Shown one piece after another: positions 829-8,522 of a stretch of DNA of 30,711 nt (its first letter is position 1; each line of letters begins with the position of its first letter). Source of the stretch: a virus. A program made the translations under genes and the position numbers. Below the pieces are notes generated by a model. It was not told the DNA's origin, searched no databases, and saw only the letters and a list, made by a program, of their open reading frames with translations. The stretch is from positions 1 to 30,711 of the IMG/VR virus record IMGVR_UViG_3300008266_000308. One strand, written 5' to 3'.

Positions 829-934
829 GGGGAGCAGCCCCACGGTCATGACTCCGCAAGGCTGGTCACTTACCCACCAGGGGAAACTACAAAAACCCTG
901 ATGCCCCTTGGGCTGACGTAGTTCTGCTTCGCCC
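829..934 (+). ncRNA. Candidate structured RNA in the thyX-gp88 gap
   Basis: The 212-base gap after thyX has no convincing ORF but folds well by eye. AGCAG (833-837) pairs with CTGCT (924-928), and flanking GGG/CCC can extend this closing stem. Inside it, TGAC..CC-GCAA-GG..GTCA (about 848-869) forms a hairpin with a GNRA tetraloop. AACTAC (885-890) pairs with GTAGTT (918-923) around a GCCC-CTT-GGGC hairpin (903-913). GGGG at 880-883 could form a pseudoknot with CCCC at 904-907. This nested arrangement resembles a riboswitch, ribozyme or other cis RNA upstream of the Gp88-family gene. I could not match it to a known class. No energy calculation was made. Confidence 0.4.
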
Positions 935-954
935 ATCCCTACTGTATTATTAGT

Positions 955-972
955 ACGTCCTGGGTACGACGT
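955..972 (+). promoter_or_regulatory. Recurrent stem-loop, copy 1 of 4
   Basis: ACGTC and GACGT form a 5-bp stem around the 8-nt loop CTGGGTAC, directly followed by TAAACTGC. It lies 44 nt before the ATG of the Gp88-family gene. Three other copies lie upstream of genes at 4010, 5104 and 8409. Its function is unknown: promoter, operator, RNA-processing site or attenuator are all possible. Confidence 0.6.
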
Positions 973-1016
973 TAAACTGCCTATTAGTTTTGCTTATCAA
1001 TCAACTCAATTCAACC

Positions 1017-1790
1017 ATGACTCTCCTTAAGTTTTCGGTTGGCAATGCCAAGCTTGCTAACCGTTTGATTTTTAATCTGCCAGCAGGATACGCTTGTCCT
1101 CAAGCTGGTGTATGCAAGACGTTTGCAGACCGTGCCACAGGCAAGATCACCGATCTGCCTCAGCTAAATGGCACCACTGCAGAGGACTACCGCTGCTTTG
1201 CAGCCATGGCAGAAACCAGGCCCAACGTTCGTGCCGCACGATGGCACAATTGGGACTTGCTGCGTGAAGTAATGTATGAAGACACAGTGCAAACGGCAGC
1301 TGACTCCTTGTGTAATCTCATTGACAGATCATTGGATGCACAAGATTTCTATGATTTGATTCGTGTACATGAATCAGGTGACTTCTGGACCGAGCTTTAC
1401 ATGAAAGCATGGCTCAAGGTTGCCAAGAAAAGATCTAATCAAACATTTTATGCATACACTAAATCGTTGGGGATGTGGCTCTCATTGCAACAGGAAGTAC
1501 CAAGTAATTTCTACTTGACTGCTTCGCATGGCGGCACTCTTGATTATCTGCTGCCCAGGCATGCAGATGTATTCAAGCGTATTGCTTACGTTGTGTATAC
1601 AGAAGAAGAAGCCGAGGCCCTTGGCCTGGAGATTGACCATGATGACAGCCATTGCTTAGGCGATAAGCCTTTCGCATTGCTGGTCCATGGGTCTCAACGT
1701 GCTGGCTCTGCCGCAAGTAAGGCATTGTCTCAACGTAAGAAAGATGGGAAGTTTGTTGGTTACCATAAGGAAAAGCTTAAAGTGGCCTAA
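1017..1790 (+). CDS. Gp88-family conserved phage protein
   Basis: This 257-residue protein matches, by recall, the phage Gp88 family (named after a mycobacteriophage gene). Family-like landmarks in order are FSVGNAKL near the N-terminus, a cysteine cluster C27-C33-C60 around NLPAGYACPQAGVC and YRCFA, ARWHNWDLL (about 75-83), RVHESGDFW, FYAYTKSL, NFYLTASHGG, GLEIDHDDSH and FALLVHGSQRAGS near the C-terminus. No enzymatic activity is established for the family, but the conserved Cys and His residues suggest metal binding. The ATG at 1017 is preferred to an in-frame TTG at 990. The leader AACTCAATTCAACC just before it recurs almost exactly before the gene at 6733 and has no Shine-Dalgarno sequence. 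Confidence 0.8.
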   Translation: MTLLKFSVGNAKLANRLIFNLPAGYACPQAGVCKTFADRATGKITDLPQLNGTTAEDYRCFAAMAETRPNVRAARWHNWDLLREVMYEDTVQTAADSLCNLIDRSLDAQDFYDLIRVHESGDFWTELYMKAWLKVAKKRSNQTFYAYTKSLGMWLSLQQEVPSNFYLTASHGGTLDYLLPRHADVFKRIAYVVYTEEEAEALGLEIDHDDSHCLGDKPFALLVHGSQRAGSAASKALSQRKKDGKFVGYHKEKLKVA

Positions 1791-1804
1791 GGCCTCTTGC
1801 ATTT

Positions 1805-1841
1805 AAAGGAAGAGCGTATATCATTTATCCGTTCTTCCTTT
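1805..1841 (+). promoter_or_regulatory. 12-bp hairpin immediately upstream of the 1847 start codon
   Basis: AAAGGAAGAGCG (1805-1816) pairs along its whole length with CGTTCTTCCTTT (1830-1841), with one G-U pair and a 13-nt loop. It ends five bases before the ATG at 1847 and lacks a clear U-run. It may end upstream transcription, shield the mRNA end or control translation of the small gene that follows. Confidence 0.55.
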
Positions 1842-1846
1842 TCCTT

Positions 1847-2080
1847 ATGAGTTACGTTATTGCTATGTGGAAAGATGGTGTGCCATACGCCATTACAGCC
1901 TGTAATCAAACCAACTCTTTTCAATTAATTCCATTAGATTCAGATGTGGCTTTGAATAAAGCATTCAGCCATCCATATCGTGCGGGTGCTGCATCAATCT
2001 TGAATTGGATTCTAAAGAATGAAAGCATTGACAGTGCTGAAGATCTTTCCATCCAAGACGAAGGTCGCTTTCGTAAGTAA
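1847..2080 (+). CDS. Hypothetical protein, 77 aa
   Basis: A short ORF between the Gp88-family gene and polA encodes a 77-residue soluble protein starting MSYVIAMWKDGVPYAI. It has no signal peptide, membrane helix or motif that I recognise. It fills the gap neatly and lies 25 bases before polA, so it is probably co-transcribed. A strong hairpin sits directly before its start codon. Function unknown. Confidence 0.65.
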   Translation: MSYVIAMWKDGVPYAITACNQTNSFQLIPLDSDVALNKAFSHPYRAGAASILNWILKNESIDSAEDLSIQDEGRFRK

Positions 2081-2105
2081 ACATTGATTACGTTTGGATT
2101 AAATT

Positions 2106-3956
2106 ATGTCAACGCTTAAAGAATCTACATTTGCCATGCATCCTGGTGATGTAAATAAATGTTGGTTGATCGTTGATATTGAAACAGATAATCTGTATGA
2201 TGACGTTACGGTTGTCCACTGCGTTGTCATACATGATATCTGCAGAAACCAAACTTTTACTTACGGGCCTGACAATATTGATGCTGCTCTTCAGCATCTG
2301 GCTACCGGTGATGTACTCATTGGTCACAACTTAATTTTCTATGACATTCCAGTTCTGCAAAAGCTGCATTCAATTGACTGCAAATCACGCATTATCGACA
2401 CGTTAATTTGCACACGTTTAATCTGGCCCAAAGAAGTTCTCGATGGTCTTGACACAGAACAATATCCGCAGGTTCCACCGAAACTGCGAGGATCTGCATC
2501 GCTCAAAGCATGGGGCTATCGCCTTGCTGATTACAAAATTGAATTCAAAGATTTCAAAGAGTACTCAGAGGAAATGGCTGAGTACTGTAGGCAAGACGTT
2601 GCTATCACCTACAAATTACTTCAAAAGATCCAGGCAGAAAACTATTGTGAGGCAGCGCTCGCTCTTGAACACGACTTTGCTCTGGCAATTAACAAACAAA
2701 TTAGAGCAGGTTTTCCTTTTGATGTGGATGCAGCTCTTGATCTTGTGGATGATCTCCGAAGAAAAGAAGCTGAACTCGAAACTCAACTGAAGGAAATCTT
2801 TCCGCCAATCAAACACGAAACCATTTTCATTCCCAAAGTAAACAACAAGAACCGTGGCTATGTCAAAGGCGAACCGTTTACTAAAGTTTCGTATGAGACT
2901 TTTAACCCTGGCTCTCGCCAACAAATTGTTGATCGTCTACAAACAAAATACGGATGGGTACCTGAGAAAACTACTGAGAAAGGTAATCCTATTCTTGATG
3001 ATGACATACTTGCAGCTTTGCCCTACCCAGAGGCAGCGCCATTGGCTGAATATATGTTGATCAAGAAACGTCTTGGTCAAATTGCTGACGGTAACAATGC
3101 ATGGCTCAAGTTAGTAAACAACGAGACTAGTTGTATTCATGGTGATCTTGTTACTAACGGTTGTATCACTGGTCGCTGTGCTCACCGTAATCCAAATATG
3201 GGTCAGGTTCCTGCTGCCTATAGTCCTTACGGTAAAGAATGCCGTTCTTTATTCCATCCGCCCCAAGGATGGAACTTGATTGGCGTTGATGCCAAGGCAT
3301 TAGAACTTAGGTGCCTTGCTGGTTATCTTGCATTGTGGGACAACGGAGAGTACGCCAAACTTGTCATCAATCCAGAAGCTGACATCCATACAATTAACCA
3401 AGAACTATTTGGTGTGGCTACCAGGGATATCAGTAAGCGTTTACTGTATGGTTTGTTGTATGGCTGTGGTGCATTAAAAGCAGGCACCATTATTGATGCA
3501 AATGAAAAAGACGAAGTAGTTCTGCGTCAACAAGGAAGTGCTGCAATTAATTCATTTATGGATGGTGTGCCAGCACTGCGTAAGTTAAAGAACAAACTGT
3601 CAAATACAATTACGAATCGTGGTTACTTGCGTGGATTAGATGGACGTGCTTTGTATTGCAGATCGGAGTTCAAAGGATTGAATGTTCTGTTGCAATCTGC
3701 AGGTGCAATTCTTATGAAGCAAGTAGTCATTAACCTTCATGAAAATTTAAATGAACTTGGCTTGGTGCATGGACATGACTGGATGCAAAATGCTATGGTG
3801 CATGACGAAGTTCAACTCAGTTGCCCACCAGCATTGACAGCTACTGTCCAAGAGCAAGCCTTGAAAGCTTTCCCACAAGCCCAAGAGTTTTTTGGATTCC
3901 GTTGCAAGATTGAAGGCGACTCCAGGGTTGGCAACAACTGGTCTGAAACCCACTAA
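2106..3956 (+). CDS. PolA-family (T7-like) DNA polymerase with 3'-5' exonuclease
   Basis: Family A replicative DNA polymerase of 616 residues. The proofreading exonuclease domain has all three motifs: DIETD (D24/E26), GHNLIFYD (N75/D80) and YCRQD (Y160/D164). The polymerase domain has motif A GVDAKALELR (D395), motif B RDISKRLLYGLLYG (R440, K444, Y448, Y452) and motif C VHDEV (H566-D567-E568). There is no 5'-3' exonuclease domain, as in T7 gp5. Tyr448 aligns with E. coli Pol I Phe762 and T7 Tyr526, a state reported to be common in virulent phages, whereas Leu is linked to temperate-like ones. A later ATG at 2136 is also possible. It works with SSB and the primase-helicase in this window. Confidence 0.95.
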   Translation: MSTLKESTFAMHPGDVNKCWLIVDIETDNLYDDVTVVHCVVIHDICRNQTFTYGPDNIDAALQHLATGDVLIGHNLIFYDIPVLQKLHSIDCKSRIIDTLICTRLIWPKEVLDGLDTEQYPQVPPKLRGSASLKAWGYRLADYKIEFKDFKEYSEEMAEYCRQDVAITYKLLQKIQAENYCEAALALEHDFALAINKQIRAGFPFDVDAALDLVDDLRRKEAELETQLKEIFPPIKHETIFIPKVNNKNRGYVKGEPFTKVSYETFNPGSRQQIVDRLQTKYGWVPEKTTEKGNPILDDDILAALPYPEAAPLAEYMLIKKRLGQIADGNNAWLKLVNNETSCIHGDLVTNGCITGRCAHRNPNMGQVPAAYSPYGKECRSLFHPPQGWNLIGVDAKALELRCLAGYLALWDNGEYAKLVINPEADIHTINQELFGVATRDISKRLLYGLLYGCGALKAGTIIDANEKDEVVLRQQGSAAINSFMDGVPALRKLKNKLSNTITNRGYLRGLDGRALYCRSEFKGLNVLLQSAGAILMKQVVINLHENLNELGLVHGHDWMQNAMVHDEVQLSCPPALTATVQEQALKAFPQAQEFFGFRCKIEGDSRVGNNWSETH

Positions 3957-3961
3957 TTATT

Positions 3962-3977
3962 CGTCCCAGGTATGACG
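3962..3977 (+). promoter_or_regulatory. Recurrent stem-loop, copy 2 of 4
   Basis: CGTC and GACG pair around the 8-nt loop CCAGGTAT, followed by TTAAACTGC exactly as in copy 1. It sits in the polA-ssb gap, 32 nt before the ssb start. The loop carries CCAGG where the other copies have CCTGG. Confidence 0.6.
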
Positions 3978-4009
3978 TTAAACTGCTTTACACCTAACAT
4001 CTCGAACAC

Positions 4010-4819
4010 ATGAACTTTGTCTCTGTCTGCGCTCAAACAACCGAAGCACCTCGCGAGGTTTATATCAGCGCTACTTCTACTGCCATGCGTTGCAACGTAA
4101 TGTTGCCGCCTGTTGGTAACAAAGCACCCACTGCAATTGAACTCAATGTCTATGGTAAAAGTGCGGAGCGGTTTAGCCGTACTCCCAAGAACGCACAAAT
4201 TTACATTCATGGTGCCAAGCTACGTTTTGACTTGGAGACCAGGACGTATTCGTTACACGGCGGAGTCATTGCAACAGTCAATGATCAGTTTCCGATCTTT
4301 AATACCGTTATCCTTAGCGGTCGCTGCGTCAAGGACATCGATCAAGCGGATGCCCGTGCCTTCAAGACTACGGCGGATGGTTTGATGATTTGCAATCAAA
4401 CCCTTTCAGTTAACACTGGAAGGAATCAAGCAGATCTATTTAATTTCTACGCAATCAATTCAAATGAAGACAAGCTAAACAATGCTGAATTGTTGGTTAA
4501 CTTCACGCGTAAAGGTGTGGGCTTAACTATCCAGGGGCGATTGGTTACTGATGCTTGGGTTGATAAAGAATCCAGGGAGAAAAAACAAATCACCAAGATT
4601 CAACTGGTGTCCATGACGCTTGCACCTAAAGTAAGTGATGGACCCAAGCCCATCCAACCACAAACCACTGTGGTATCTGACAGCAATGTCAGCAGCCTGT
4701 GGGGCGGCAAGACGGCTGAAGATGAACCTGATCCCTGGACTAAGGCTTCTGGTGGTGGTCTGCCAGAGCTGCCAGGACAGTACGGCACAGCACCTGCACT
4801 GGAAGAAGAGCCGTTCTGA
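4010..4819 (+). CDS. ssb: Single-stranded DNA-binding protein with acidic C-terminal tip
   Basis: This 269-residue protein looks like a phage SSB. The first ~95 residues are rich in beta-strand patterns (VMLPPVGNK, AIELNVYGKSAERF, IYIHGAKLRFDLE). A second OB-like region follows (VILSGRCVKDID, DLFNFYAIN, LLVNFTRKGVGLTIQGRLV, ITKIQLVSMTLAP). It ends in a disordered Pro/Gly/Gln-rich linker and the acidic tip LEEEPF. That tip mimics the DDIPF tail with which bacterial SSBs recruit replication partners. Position between polA and other replication genes supports the role. The OB-fold assignment is by pattern, so I am fairly but not fully sure. Confidence 0.75.
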   Translation: MNFVSVCAQTTEAPREVYISATSTAMRCNVMLPPVGNKAPTAIELNVYGKSAERFSRTPKNAQIYIHGAKLRFDLETRTYSLHGGVIATVNDQFPIFNTVILSGRCVKDIDQADARAFKTTADGLMICNQTLSVNTGRNQADLFNFYAINSNEDKLNNAELLVNFTRKGVGLTIQGRLVTDAWVDKESREKKQITKIQLVSMTLAPKVSDGPKPIQPQTTVVSDSNVSSLWGGKTAEDEPDPWTKASGGGLPELPGQYGTAPALEEEPF

Positions 4820-5049
4820 TGGATTCCAGGATTGAATTTAAATATAAAGATGAAGACTTAACTGTCTCATTTGAGTCTCAAGGTGTGACTACGGATGAAG
4901 TGCTTGAACACTTTGTACGCTTTCTGCTTGGCATGGGCTATGCCCGTGAAAGCATCTATGAAGGCATGCAGGAAATTCTTGATGAGCACGAAGACTATCT
5001 TAAGAGTTGTGCCAAGTTGGATGTCAGTCCTTTACTTGACTTAAGCTAG
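4819..5049 (+). CDS. Hypothetical protein, 76 aa
   Basis: The ATG shares its A with the TGA stop of ssb (TGATG), so the gene is almost certainly translationally coupled to it. The 76-residue product is acidic and probably mostly helical (VLEHFVRFLLGMGYARESIYEG). There is no recognised domain. Coupling to SSB suggests a replication accessory role, but this is inference only. Translation ends just before stem-loop copy 3. Confidence 0.75.
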   Translation: MDSRIEFKYKDEDLTVSFESQGVTTDEVLEHFVRFLLGMGYARESIYEGMQEILDEHEDYLKSCAKLDVSPLLDLS

Positions 5050-5052
5050 GTC

Positions 5053-5071
5053 ACGTCCTGGAGGATGACGT
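5053..5071 (+). promoter_or_regulatory. Recurrent stem-loop, copy 3 of 4
   Basis: ACGTC and GACGT pair around the 9-nt loop CTGGAGGAT, followed by TAAAAGCC. It is 32 nt before the ATG at 5104. An in-frame ATG at 5065 falls inside this element and is therefore unlikely to be the start of the downstream gene. Confidence 0.6.
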
Positions 5072-5103
5072 TAAAAGCCTCATGCCTACACCCTAACTTG
5101 ATT

Positions 5104-6207
5104 ATGACTTCCACTCCGGTTGACATGATGAGTGAGGCTTGGATGGATTCCATGCAAGCTGAAACTAAAAAACCTGAACAATTCTTTAACCCTTCTACAA
5201 AAATGACTGTGAAGAAAACCTCTGCAATTGCTACTCGCGGGTTGGAATCCTTTAAGCTATTCCAAGCCAAAGAATTTGTATCGGGTTATCAAAACCTTGT
5301 TACTATTCAACCTCTCAATAAGTCCAAGACACGCGGCTGGTTCGTACGGAATTCGGACCTGGACACTTGTGGATGGTCAGCCACCGAAGCTGACTTTGAT
5401 AAGGGTTCAGTTCTCTGGGATTACAAGCAGACTTTTGGTGTTGCTCCCAATACTTCAGTTGAGGAAGGACTCAATTTCACTGCGCCTCGTCTCCAAATCC
5501 TTTTGCGTTCTCCCCTCATGGTTGAAGAAACCACTGGGATGCGTCAAACGATTGGTACGTTTGATAACCTTGAGGTCAAAGAACTTTGGGAAGCTGACAA
5601 AATTGCAGCAGACCTTGCCAACAGCAAGGGCGATATGTACAAGCGCAAGTACAGCGTTCGTACCAAATACTTGGTTTACATCCTTACCAAGGAGAATAAG
5701 CGGGCTCACAAAATCCCAATGGTTCTGACCCTGAAAGGGCTGAATGGTACTGATGTATCCGAGAAAGTAAAGCTGTACGAAAAAGAAATGTCCAAGTGTC
5801 TGAGCAAGGCACTGGATGCAGAAGTACCACTGAGTTTTAACGAAAAGTTCTATGCAACCACGGTGTTTGCACCTGTGCTTGCTAATGAGATGCGTGGTGC
5901 CAACAACGTTGAGATCTGCGCTATCGAATCGTTTGACATTCCTGATTACAGCGATCAGGAAACTGCAGTTGAGTCGCTCAGCCGTATGTCAATCCCTGAT
6001 GAAGATCGAGATTCCACTTGGAAATTCCAAGAGTTGTTCCAGGATTACATCAACCAACATTCCCGGCAAGATGCAGAGAAGTTGGGCGGTGCTTACGGAA
6101 TTAAAGCTGGGGTTGAAATCCTGCCCGCCATGCGTGGTGATGGGATGGAAATGAAAGCTCTGCAATCTGCTCGTGATCCCAACACAGGTGAGGACAGCAG
6201 CCTTTGA
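5104..6207 (+). CDS. Hypothetical protein, 367 aa, in the replication module
   Basis: A long well-formed gene that I cannot assign firmly. The product is soluble, with no signal or membrane segment. A central region (LVTIQPLNKSKTRGWFVRNSD, then CGWSATEADF) is reminiscent of the cyanobacterial DUF5895 family, but this is a weak recollection. The C-terminus (about 300-367) is charged and probably helical. It follows ssb and its partner gene behind stem-loop copy 3, so a role in DNA metabolism, perhaps single-strand annealing or recombination, is conceivable but not shown. ATG 5104 is preferred to ATG 5065, which lies within the stem-loop. Confidence 0.8.
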   Translation: MTSTPVDMMSEAWMDSMQAETKKPEQFFNPSTKMTVKKTSAIATRGLESFKLFQAKEFVSGYQNLVTIQPLNKSKTRGWFVRNSDLDTCGWSATEADFDKGSVLWDYKQTFGVAPNTSVEEGLNFTAPRLQILLRSPLMVEETTGMRQTIGTFDNLEVKELWEADKIAADLANSKGDMYKRKYSVRTKYLVYILTKENKRAHKIPMVLTLKGLNGTDVSEKVKLYEKEMSKCLSKALDAEVPLSFNEKFYATTVFAPVLANEMRGANNVEICAIESFDIPDYSDQETAVESLSRMSIPDEDRDSTWKFQELFQDYINQHSRQDAEKLGGAYGIKAGVEILPAMRGDGMEMKALQSARDPNTGEDSSL

Positions 6208-6462
6208 TTAGGTAACGTCGGGGTTTGTTAAGTCTGTTGCATCAACTGCAACATTGTTAAAGATAAACATATCTTGAACCAAGCCCCGAATAATTCCTTG
6301 CCTTTGAGTAGCAATCCTCGCCAAGAGGGTTGCTACTTCTTTTAAGGTACTTACCGAGTTACATTCTTCTATGGTTCGTTTGATTTTCTCTTCCCAAAAC
6401 TTATCCTCCATTGAGGGTTCGATTTGGAATTTCTGTAACGGTACGTATTTAATCTCGTTCAT
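6208..6462 (-). CDS. Hypothetical minus-strand protein, 84 aa
   Basis: A minus-strand gene lying tail to tail with the 367-aa gene; the stop codons are adjacent at 6207/6208. The 84-residue product starts MNEIKYVPLQ and is largely helical and charged (KFWEEKIKRTIEECNSV, then TLLARIATQRQGIIRGL). The repeated helix pattern and position suggest a real gene rather than a shadow, and I have an impression of similar proteins in cyanophages. A longer in-frame start at 6534 would overlap the plus-strand gene at 6506. Function unknown. Confidence 0.6.
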   Translation of the reverse strand: MNEIKYVPLQKFQIEPSMEDKFWEEKIKRTIEECNSVSTLKEVATLLARIATQRQGIIRGLVQDMFIFNNVAVDATDLTNPDVT

Positions 6463-6505
6463 TTGATTGAAGCGTACAGTTAATTCTACTTCTACACTAA
6501 ATGTT

Positions 6506-6709
6506 ATGAACAACCAGGAAAAAGCTGCAATCAAAGCGGGTAGTACAGCTGCTCTTATTGGAGGGGCCGTTGCTCTTGCCGTTGCCCATCCGCTGACATG
6601 GGCTGCCTTAATTTACGGCACCTATAAGATTGGCAAGAATGCGTACCGACAGGCCGCACCTCGTGGTACTGTGGTCCAGGATCAAGGCGACGAACACCTG
6701 TTCATCTAA
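6506..6709 (+). CDS. Small membrane protein, 67 aa
   Basis: The 67-residue product starting MNNQEKAAIKAGSTAAL has one long hydrophobic stretch, with Gly/Ala-rich LIGGAVALAVAHPLTWAALI at about 15-34. A positively charged segment (YKIGKNAYRQAAPR) and an acidic tail follow. This predicts one or two membrane helices with the C-terminus inside. It opens a plus-strand run after the lone minus gene. A small holin- or anti-holin-like role is possible, but the lysis genes lie elsewhere. Start chosen at ATG 6506; upstream in-frame TTG 6467 is less likely. Confidence 0.65.
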   Translation: MNNQEKAAIKAGSTAALIGGAVALAVAHPLTWAALIYGTYKIGKNAYRQAAPRGTVVQDQGDEHLFI

Positions 6710-6732
6710 TCCATTTCAAACTCAATTCAATC

Positions 6733-7674
6733 ATGACAACTCAAACGCTTACCGAACTCAATGCGGCACAGGCATCGATTTACACGCGCACAAATCTCCG
6801 TCGTGCGTTTGTTGAATTCGATGAGACGGATGTGGCCGGTATCTATGTCCGAGATGATTCTTGTGTTGTGGTCTACAGGGATGGTGCTGAACGTATATTT
6901 CCAAAACAAAAAGTAAAAGATGCATTCCTTCAATACACCCATCGACTAAAAGATTTCTTTTCTTATCTTGGCCCTAACTATCGAGGCCCTTCCATCTGGC
7001 ACAATAATGCATATGTCATGTTTAAAGGATGGAATTATTCCCATGCACTTGGGCATCTGACTTCTAATGCAAAACTCCAACACCACTGGGCAGACAAGTT
7101 CATACACCTATCAGACCCAAAGAAAGTCATCACTCTTCTCCAGAGTGACCAGACGGATCTGGGCCATTTGGTTTCACCGGACGGGATGCGCTTTACAACT
7201 GGGCCGGTTGATATGGAATCTGAATTGGAAGATGGACCTCAAGCCAACACCGTGCCTAATGAACCTTTCTGTTCATGTGGGTCCTTTCAACGTCAACTCA
7301 ACAGTCTTTCTGATTTCCAAGCGGAAGTCCAAGGATTCAAACCCTGGTGCATCCACCTGACTTGGTTTAATAAGTACCGTGAGCTGCTGTGCAAACGCAC
7401 TGACGTACGCAACGAAGCGCGTGGTCAGGTCTCCGATAAGTGCGTAGCATGGTGGTATGCGCCTCCAGGGGATGCAGCCAGGGATGGTCGATTCCTGTTG
7501 CTGCATACCAAGTCAGGTCCTCAGGCACCTCTGAGTCACTGGCGTACATACAAACCTAAGGAAGTCTTTACACAAGAACATGCCTGGGATTTGTTTTTTA
7601 ATATGATGGAGGCGGGCTACATTCCATTTCCAGGCATTGCACTTCCACAACTTTCTTCTGCAAACAAAAAATGA
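6733..7674 (+). CDS. Protein with SWIM-type zinc-binding motif, 313 aa
   Basis: The distinctive feature is C180-x-C182-x23-C206-x-H208 (FCSCGSF ... PWCIHLTW), which fits the SWIM zinc-finger pattern CxC-x(6-25)-CxH. SWIM modules bind nucleic acid or protein partners in, for example, SWI2/SNF2 proteins, MuDR transposases and Sws1/Shu recombination factors. The N-terminal ~130 residues (VDETD-like start, YVRDDSCVVVYRDG, then a WxHAxGHL region) have no recognised domain. The C-terminal part has many aromatics. A DNA-repair or recombination accessory role is possible in this context. The leader AACTCAATTCAATC before the ATG repeats that of the Gp88-family gene. Confidence 0.75.
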   Translation: MTTQTLTELNAAQASIYTRTNLRRAFVEFDETDVAGIYVRDDSCVVVYRDGAERIFPKQKVKDAFLQYTHRLKDFFSYLGPNYRGPSIWHNNAYVMFKGWNYSHALGHLTSNAKLQHHWADKFIHLSDPKKVITLLQSDQTDLGHLVSPDGMRFTTGPVDMESELEDGPQANTVPNEPFCSCGSFQRQLNSLSDFQAEVQGFKPWCIHLTWFNKYRELLCKRTDVRNEARGQVSDKCVAWWYAPPGDAARDGRFLLLHTKSGPQAPLSHWRTYKPKEVFTQEHAWDLFFNMMEAGYIPFPGIALPQLSSANKK

Positions 7675-7826
7675 CTAAGAACTTAACGCTGTTTAAAACT
7701 CTTACAGTGTTGGCTAACGCATTAGAAAAACGTAGCATCCAGGCAATTACGCCAAACCAGCTACGTGAACTTGCTAAAACTACTTTGAAAACCAATGACA
7801 ACTTGGGTAAGCAAACTGCAAATTGA
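7671..7826 (+). CDS. Small hypothetical protein, 51 aa
   Basis: Found by reading the gap. ATG 7671 overlaps the TGA of the SWIM-motif gene (ATGA), the coupling style used throughout this region. The product begins MTKNLTLFKTL and is basic and probably helical (LANALEKRSIQAI, then LRELAKTTLK). Its 3' end overlaps the next gene by 32 bases, which is more than usual here. Function unknown. Confidence 0.55.
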   Translation: MTKNLTLFKTLTVLANALEKRSIQAITPNQLRELAKTTLKTNDNLGKQTAN

Positions 7827-7980
7827 ATGTATTGACGAAGAAGATGGATCAATGATCATCCGCATTGATTGGGATGGGACAGATCCAGATCTTAAATACT
7901 GGACTGCTCTTGATCCAGAAGGTCAAGAACAGTTTATTATTGATGCATTAACTGCTGCTATTGATTGCTATGTCGATTAA
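7795..7980 (+). CDS. Hypothetical acidic protein, 61 aa
   Basis: The product starts MTTWVSKLQIECIDEEDG and is strongly acidic, with beta-strand-like IIRIDWDGTD and a C-terminal helix (QFIIDALTAAIDCYVD). No domain recognised. It overlaps both neighbours, so it belongs to a coupled cluster of small genes. The reading is plausible because the acidic D/E-rich pattern is maintained to the stop. Confidence 0.65.
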   Translation: MTTWVSKLQIECIDEEDGSMIIRIDWDGTDPDLKYWTALDPEGQEQFIIDALTAAIDCYVD

Positions 7981-8353
7981 CACTTATGGTATGAATGATG
8001 AACAGTATCTTGAACTGTTCCGAAAACAATCTCAATTCTTTTTTTGTACGATGCGAGAAATGATTATTGGTGGAATAGAAGAAAAGGTTGATTTAAACAA
8101 CTGGCCGCATGAAGTAATTTGGAAAATGTACGAGAGTATTCAGTACGACGTAACTGAAGAAGCTCGTATGATCCAAAAGAAAGAAGACCCTGAAGGATAT
8201 AAAGAAAATGTATATGAACCATTGTTAATGCCAAGTCATGTGGAGTTGAGCGAAGAAATTGCAGTAGTCAGTATAAAACTTGACGCACTGACTGACTATC
8301 TTGCTGAACTGTTAAACAAATCGAAAGATAACTTGACAGATAAGGTAGACTAA
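7970..8353 (+). CDS. Hypothetical protein, 127 aa
   Basis: A soluble, acidic, mostly helical protein starting MSINTYGMNDEQYLELF from ATG 7970, which overlaps the previous gene by 11 bases. ATG 7991 is an alternative start that would leave a 10-base gap. The C-terminal half (VELSEEIAVVSIKLDALTDY) looks like a heptad-containing coiled coil. No family recognised. It is the last gene before stem-loop copy 4. Confidence 0.65.
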   Translation: MSINTYGMNDEQYLELFRKQSQFFFCTMREMIIGGIEEKVDLNNWPHEVIWKMYESIQYDVTEEARMIQKKEDPEGYKENVYEPLLMPSHVELSEEIAVVSIKLDALTDYLAELLNKSKDNLTDKVD

Positions 8354-8358
8354 TGCCC

Positions 8359-8374
8359 GGTCCTGGTCATGACC
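8359..8374 (+). promoter_or_regulatory. Recurrent stem-loop, copy 4 of 4
   Basis: GGTC and GACC pair around the 8-nt loop CTGGTCAT, followed by CTAAACTG. Relative to the other copies the outermost C-G pair is replaced by G-C, so the stem is kept while the sequence changes. It lies 34 nt before the ATG at 8409. Confidence 0.6.
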
Positions 8375-8408
8375 CTAAACTGACCGCAACCAACCTAAAT
8401 TCAAAATC

Positions 8409-8522
8409 ATGTTTGAAACCTTTGCTTCAATGGTTATTCCTGTTCTCAAAGATTTTCTTTGGACAGCGGCCGTAGCGCTGCTGGCCTACACACTAAACAA
8501 ACTTCAAGCACACTTCGCATGA
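8409..8522 (+). CDS. Very small membrane protein, 37 aa
   Basis: Too short for routine ORF calling but well supported by context. It follows stem-loop copy 4 with an ATTCAAAATC leader, and its TGA overlaps the next start (ATGA). The product starts MFETFASMVIPVLKDF and has one hydrophobic helix (about residues 9-29, including FLWTAAVALLAYTL) and a short basic end. It is predicted to lie in the inner membrane. Single-span proteins of this size in phages may be holin-like or modulate host membrane complexes; no specific role can be assigned. Confidence 0.6.
   Translation: MFETFASMVIPVLKDFLWTAAVALLAYTLNKLQAHFA

Follow-up and report, generated by a model that had tools for sequence, protein, structure and literature searches.

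A compact H-type RNA pseudoknot with fixed loop bases recurs in gene leaders of S-EIV1-like cyanophages and of unrelated phages

The window, i.e., the whole stretch of DNA analyzed here, is a 30,711-base virus record, and the DNA polymerase that it encodes shares 72% identity with its counterpart in Synechococcus phage S-EIV1. The window carries four copies of a short element, which lie on the plus strand together with the genes that they precede. Copy 1 (956 to 983) ends 33 nt before a GP88-family gene (PF17338; 1017 to 1790), copy 2 (3962 to 3988) 21 nt before the gene for a single-strand DNA-binding protein (SSB; PHROG 44, PF00436; 4010 to 4819), copy 3 (5054 to 5081) 22 nt before a DUF5895 gene (PF19247; 5104 to 6207), and copy 4 (8359 to 8386) 22 nt before a gene for a 37-aa hydrophobic peptide (8409 to 8522), a conserved downstream gene (cluster CL1). 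The places reported in the initial annotation for the four copies held both in a direct reading of the sequence and in a gapped-pattern search of the window, which returned all four copies in one orientation and had no match on the opposite strand. When up to 3 mismatches were allowed, a 24-base consensus recovered three of the four and matched nowhere else in the window, against an expectation of 0 from 100 shuffles. The annotation had placed the copies upstream of replication genes, which is partly true, since the four genes encode GP88, SSB, DUF5895, and the 37-aa peptide. We failed to find a copy directly before the DNA polymerase gene of the window. Between thyX and copy 1 (805 to 955) lie about 150 nt of noncoding DNA with GC-rich inverted repeats.

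The element had been described as a stem-loop. Its stem is real, but the description was incomplete, because the loop of every copy is base-paired with the 3′ extension as well, which gives an H-type pseudoknot of approximately 28 to 30 nt. The order is stem 1 (S1, xGUC/GACx′), one C (L1), stem 2 (S2, usually 5 to 6 bp), one nucleotide (L2), and UUAAAC (L3), with the 3′ tail TTAAACTGC comprising loop 3 and the second strand of stem 2. Copy 1 has S1 at 956-959/968-971, L1 at C960, S2 at 961-966/978-983 with two wobbles, L2 at 967, and L3 UUAAAC at 972-977, and its covariance-model match spans 954 to 986 (45.5 bits). Copy 2 has S1 at 3962-3965/3974-3977, L1 at 3966-3967, S2 at 3968-3972/3984-3988, and L3 UUAAAC at 3978-3983 (44.6 bits). 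Copy 3 is a variant with longer L1 and L2 (23.2 bits), in which S1 lies at 5054-5057/5067-5070, S2 is GAGG (5061-5064) paired with CCUC (5078-5081), and L3 reads UUAAAAG. In copy 4 (36.2 bits), S1 is GGUC/GACC at 8359-8362/8371-8374, the outer pair being G-C in place of C-G, as had been noticed before; L1 is C8363, S2 lies at 8364-8369/8381-8386, and L3 is CUAAAC at 8375-8380.

In copies from relatives, the hairpin loop is complementary to the bases after UUAAAC, and both sides covary. We aligned 125 distinct copies with an 8-nt loop without gaps, under the structure ..((((.[[[[[[.))))......]]]]]]..., and found 93.6% of the stem 2 cells paired in this register, compared with 14 to 51% in slid versions. 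Cells with double changes numbered 146 versus 50 in shuffles, and further pair types 18 versus 13; the pair 10-28 alone is G-C in 63 sequences and A-U in 56. The inner pairs of stem 1 were set by the search pattern in this alignment and provide no evidence there. On the coding strand, the wobbles of stem 2 were G-T in 86 cases and A-C in 9, and the selected molecule is therefore the coding-strand RNA. An H-type pseudoknot acting as RNA is thus well supported. The RNA-level control element offered as one reading in the annotation gains strong support from the covariation of stem 2, the strand-asymmetric wobbles, and the co-oriented copies in leaders. The other reading offered there, an inverted-repeat operator or promoter at the DNA level, is disfavored, since a pseudoknot whose wobbles fall on the coding strand does not form a DNA palindrome.

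The window SSB has 76 relatives in IMG/VR. When ssb genes of S-EIV1-like phages were reached via the protein, leaving the motif unused, the pseudoknot was present in 74 of 74 ssb leaders. It escapes covariance models limited to nested structure; the covariance-model search of relatives that had been suggested was run with a model of stem 2 and gave 264 matches in 1.19 Mb, although the metagenome contigs are redundant and related, and copy counts do not equal independent events. The copies at the IMG/VR loci were all on the ssb strand, as were the seven of S-EIV1, all of which fall inside the block with polymerase, ssb, and thyX and none among the virion genes. Each genome holds 3 to 10 copies (27 long records). 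An ATG gene lies downstream of 196 of 198 distinct copies, nearly always within about 75 nt, and the largest groups of these genes encode SSB (56), a hydrophobic peptide of about 39 aa (31), DUF5895 (30), GP88 (26), and a PcfJ-like protein (25), followed by small singletons. The minus strand of S-EIV1 (KJ410740) also carries two further pairs of intergenic repeats that look structured, at approximately 43.4 to 43.8 kb and 40.8 to 41.5 kb (GATCCGTCAAAGCGGGT... and CAAACCCTGGGCNTCCATA...AAGTCCCAGGA), with no match in Rfam.

The pseudoknot is placed with precision between its neighbors. Among 174 copies with a recognizable upstream gene, 73 start exactly 5 nt past its stop codon, 22 more start 6 to 7 nt past it, and 3 start closer than 5 nt. 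The 5-nt spacing is seen in the window for copy 2, after the DNA polymerase stop codon (3954-3956), and for copy 4 (stop codon at 8351-8353); copy 1, with its 33-nt leader and no stop codon of a long gene close upstream, is the exception. On the other side, the end of stem 2 is 19 to 22 nt from the ATG in 148 of 196 copies. The leader in between is unstructured in the S-EIV1 clade, approximately 20 nt long, and C/A-rich with 1 to 8% G, and a Shine-Dalgarno motif is almost absent from it. Few S-EIV1 genes have the motif in any case (26 of 103 under a loose rule), and we rejected a role of the knot as its stand-in as unspecific, the motif being present in the wider set described below. Judged by general ribosome footprints, the two gaps would be the smallest that let the knot stay folded between a ribosome occupying the stop codon and a 30S subunit occupying the next start.

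The fold is not confined to these phages. A pattern scan independent of ssb matched at least 120 viral stretches and at least 73 bacterial ones, and many of the viral matches are S-EIV1 relatives while others are not. Among the matches listed, 102 of the 126 distinct viral sequences and 25 of the 70 distinct bacterial ones formed an in-register stem 2 of 5 bp or more, compared with about 1 after scrambling the loops. With the stem 1 pair exchanged (CGACC..GTCG), stem 2 was formed in 51 of 68 distinct matches, again among the matches listed. Patterns with an altered loop 3 hit 21 stretches, none with stem 2, and those with an altered loop 1 C hit 8, one with stem 2. A descriptor without fixed bases, run over 4.4 Mb, returned UUAAAC as loop 3 in 169 distinct matches, UAAAAC in 19, CUAAAC in 11, and others in at most 5; these loci are motif-enriched, yet 25 copies with other stem 1 types obey the same rule. 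Loop 1 was always C, and stem 1 followed NGWC except for a single NGCC.

Outside the S-EIV1 clade, the downstream gene mostly encodes a head scaffolding protein and the upstream gene a minor head or head morphogenesis protein. Staphylococcus phage 80 has the fold between its minor head and scaffold genes, with a stem 2 that we read as 4 bp; the descriptor gave no match in Staphylococcus phage 80alpha. In this wider set, placement follows the upstream stop codon as in the S-EIV1 clade, whereas the next start lies at a variable distance (about 10 to 160 nt) and often has a Shine-Dalgarno motif, so a direct role at the start codon does not hold generally. Of the bacterial matches with a good stem 2, seven fall within tiny peptide genes and several within regions of prophage-like or mobile character; an origin from a host gene was rejected, as no single host gene recurs among these approximately 25 of 70 matches. 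The seven bacterial mini-genes have about 20 codons (e.g., MFTKHWMLRETAHCKEGCLIPSRARR) and enter the pseudoknot with their 3′ end, and a terminator-like hairpin follows the pseudoknot in one of them. Several Paludibacteraceae/Bacteroidales genomes (six loci) show repeated pattern matches, mostly without the usual stem 2, which are possibly another repeat. One viral contig (L389) contains a type II hammerhead ribozyme at 2202 to 2271.

No Rfam family matched at its gathering score at the copies in the window, in S-EIV1, or at 18 bacterial and 13 phage loci. STAXI (RF01728) likewise gave no match from 900 to 8500 of the window, either at the gathering score or up to an E value of 10. We found no description of this pseudoknot in the literature searched, which left out most subscription papers, so that an earlier description is possible. 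A 2017 list of 224 motifs reportedly holds phage motifs near GP20 and DUF2800 genes.

On balance, it seems probable, by a modest measure, that the copies represent an unnamed and very widespread phage RNA family, defined by a pseudoknot about 28 nt in length whose C and UUAAAC loops are invariant, and found in unrelated tailed phages of cyanobacteria, Firmicutes, and other hosts as well as in some bacterial mini-genes. It would be a device of general use in the leaders of important genes, with a conserved host component recognizing the knot. For the mechanism, we tentatively favor a host-facing, cis-acting mRNA boundary element supporting the next, high-demand gene, a reading that may quite possibly be right. 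The pseudoknot lies between neighboring genes on a single phage mRNA. It starts right past the upstream stop codon and ends where the 30S footprint at the following start codon would just leave it clear, and it could thus remain folded as ribosomes end one gene and start the next. Its partner would be common to many bacterial hosts, such as the machinery of ribosome landing or of mRNA decay, and is preferred over one phage protein because the fold spans unrelated phages. The element may thereby raise and uncouple the expression of the next gene, i.e., SSB in S-EIV1-like phages and scaffold and capsid in many siphophages, which are presumably proteins in high demand.

The strongest rival, which we nevertheless consider unlikely, is a translational operator of the phage's own SSB of the T4 gene 32 type, in which SSB would bind the knot, spread over the leader, and block initiation, the other leaders forming an SSB regulon. 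The presence of the knot at every ssb and the unstructured leader of about 20 nt from knot to start agree with it, as does T4, where a pseudoknot of about 28 nt nucleates cooperative binding across the ribosome-binding site (PMC535899; PMC3014915). However, this fold, fixed bases included, also stands before scaffold and other genes in unrelated phages where this SSB is no neighbor, and a single phage repressor is therefore insufficient. Moreover, the SSB is of the PF00436 type, for which a likeness to gp32 is unsupported, and the leader is devoid of the repeated UUAAA elements required in T4. Slightly less likely still is a barrier in mRNA processing or decay, with the knot halting exonucleases or marking a cleavage past the stop codon and giving the downstream part a separate half-life, with no direct effect on translation. 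The tie to the upstream stop codon in both sets and the loose start distance outside the S-EIV1 clade would suit such a barrier, but the start distance within the clade is also tight, which decay alone does not need.

A small-molecule riboswitch with a minimal preQ1-I-like aptamer, its pocket formed by the L1 C and the L3 UUAAAC, appears improbable. Small H-type aptamers do exist, and the unpaired bases are fixed while the stems are free, but plain loop-helix triples would explain the fixed bases as well, no Rfam riboswitch model matches, the controlled genes have no common pathway, and there are up to ten copies per phage genome. Least credible is a recoding signal, in which a knot 5 nt past the stop would stimulate readthrough or frameshifting of the upstream gene, since the spacer and fold resemble viral recoding stimulators but we found no conserved extension past the upstream stop codon, the frames there being scattered in length and continuous with that of the following gene about one third of the time, which chance alone would give.

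One compact fold with fixed loop bases recurs in hundreds of copies, several per genome, in S-EIV1-like cyanophages and again before the scaffold/capsid operons of unrelated phages, including the cultured Staphylococcus phage 80. This recurrence suggests a host-facing mechanism used by many phages. Being short, the pseudoknot also lends itself to probing, binding, and reporter assays, and it may be of use as a part for controlling gene output.

To our knowledge, leader pseudoknots of DNA phages are known mainly from T4 gene 32. Among known elements, the T4 gene 32 operator, STAXI, and the tisB pseudoknot come nearest, but none of them is identical to the element described here. The rpsO (S15) pseudoknots likewise place a knot that meets the 30S subunit in a leader, but they are bound by S15, tied to rpsO, and of other sequence and size. 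STAXI is also a small pseudoknot near ssb and other DNA-handling genes (PMC2864571), although it forms tandem repeats with UUCG loops in Enterobacteriales, in contrast to the single copies about 1 to 3 kb apart seen here. In E. coli tisB, a pseudoknot and a single-stranded region can load 30S subunits (PMC7708055), and a knot with a single-stranded region before the start is found here too, the latter being, in the S-EIV1 clade, 19 to 22 nt long, C/A-rich, and G-poor. However, the tisB knot differs in topology (S1 of 9, S2 of 5, L1 of 0, L3 of 3) and lies far upstream of a sequestered ribosome-binding site, whereas the leader here is open and about 20 nt long. In addition, cyanobacteria and some Firmicutes may not use ribosomal protein S1, the tisB partner, for initiation (PMC5397173), and the element here need not work by the tisB route. 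The gene 32 operators of T4, T2, and RB69 resemble our element in having an H-type pseudoknot of about 28 nt in a phage ssb leader, followed by an unstructured leader, but they differ in sequence, loop rules, and gene sets, and the element here also occurs in unrelated phages. UUAAA/UAAA repeats follow the T4 knot, whereas here the leader is C/A-rich and UUAAA belongs to loop 3. The T4 SSB is of the gp32 family, while the best solved relatives of the PHROG 44/PF00436 SSB are bacterial-type SSBs, and the gene 32 operator occurs once per phage, compared with three to ten copies here.
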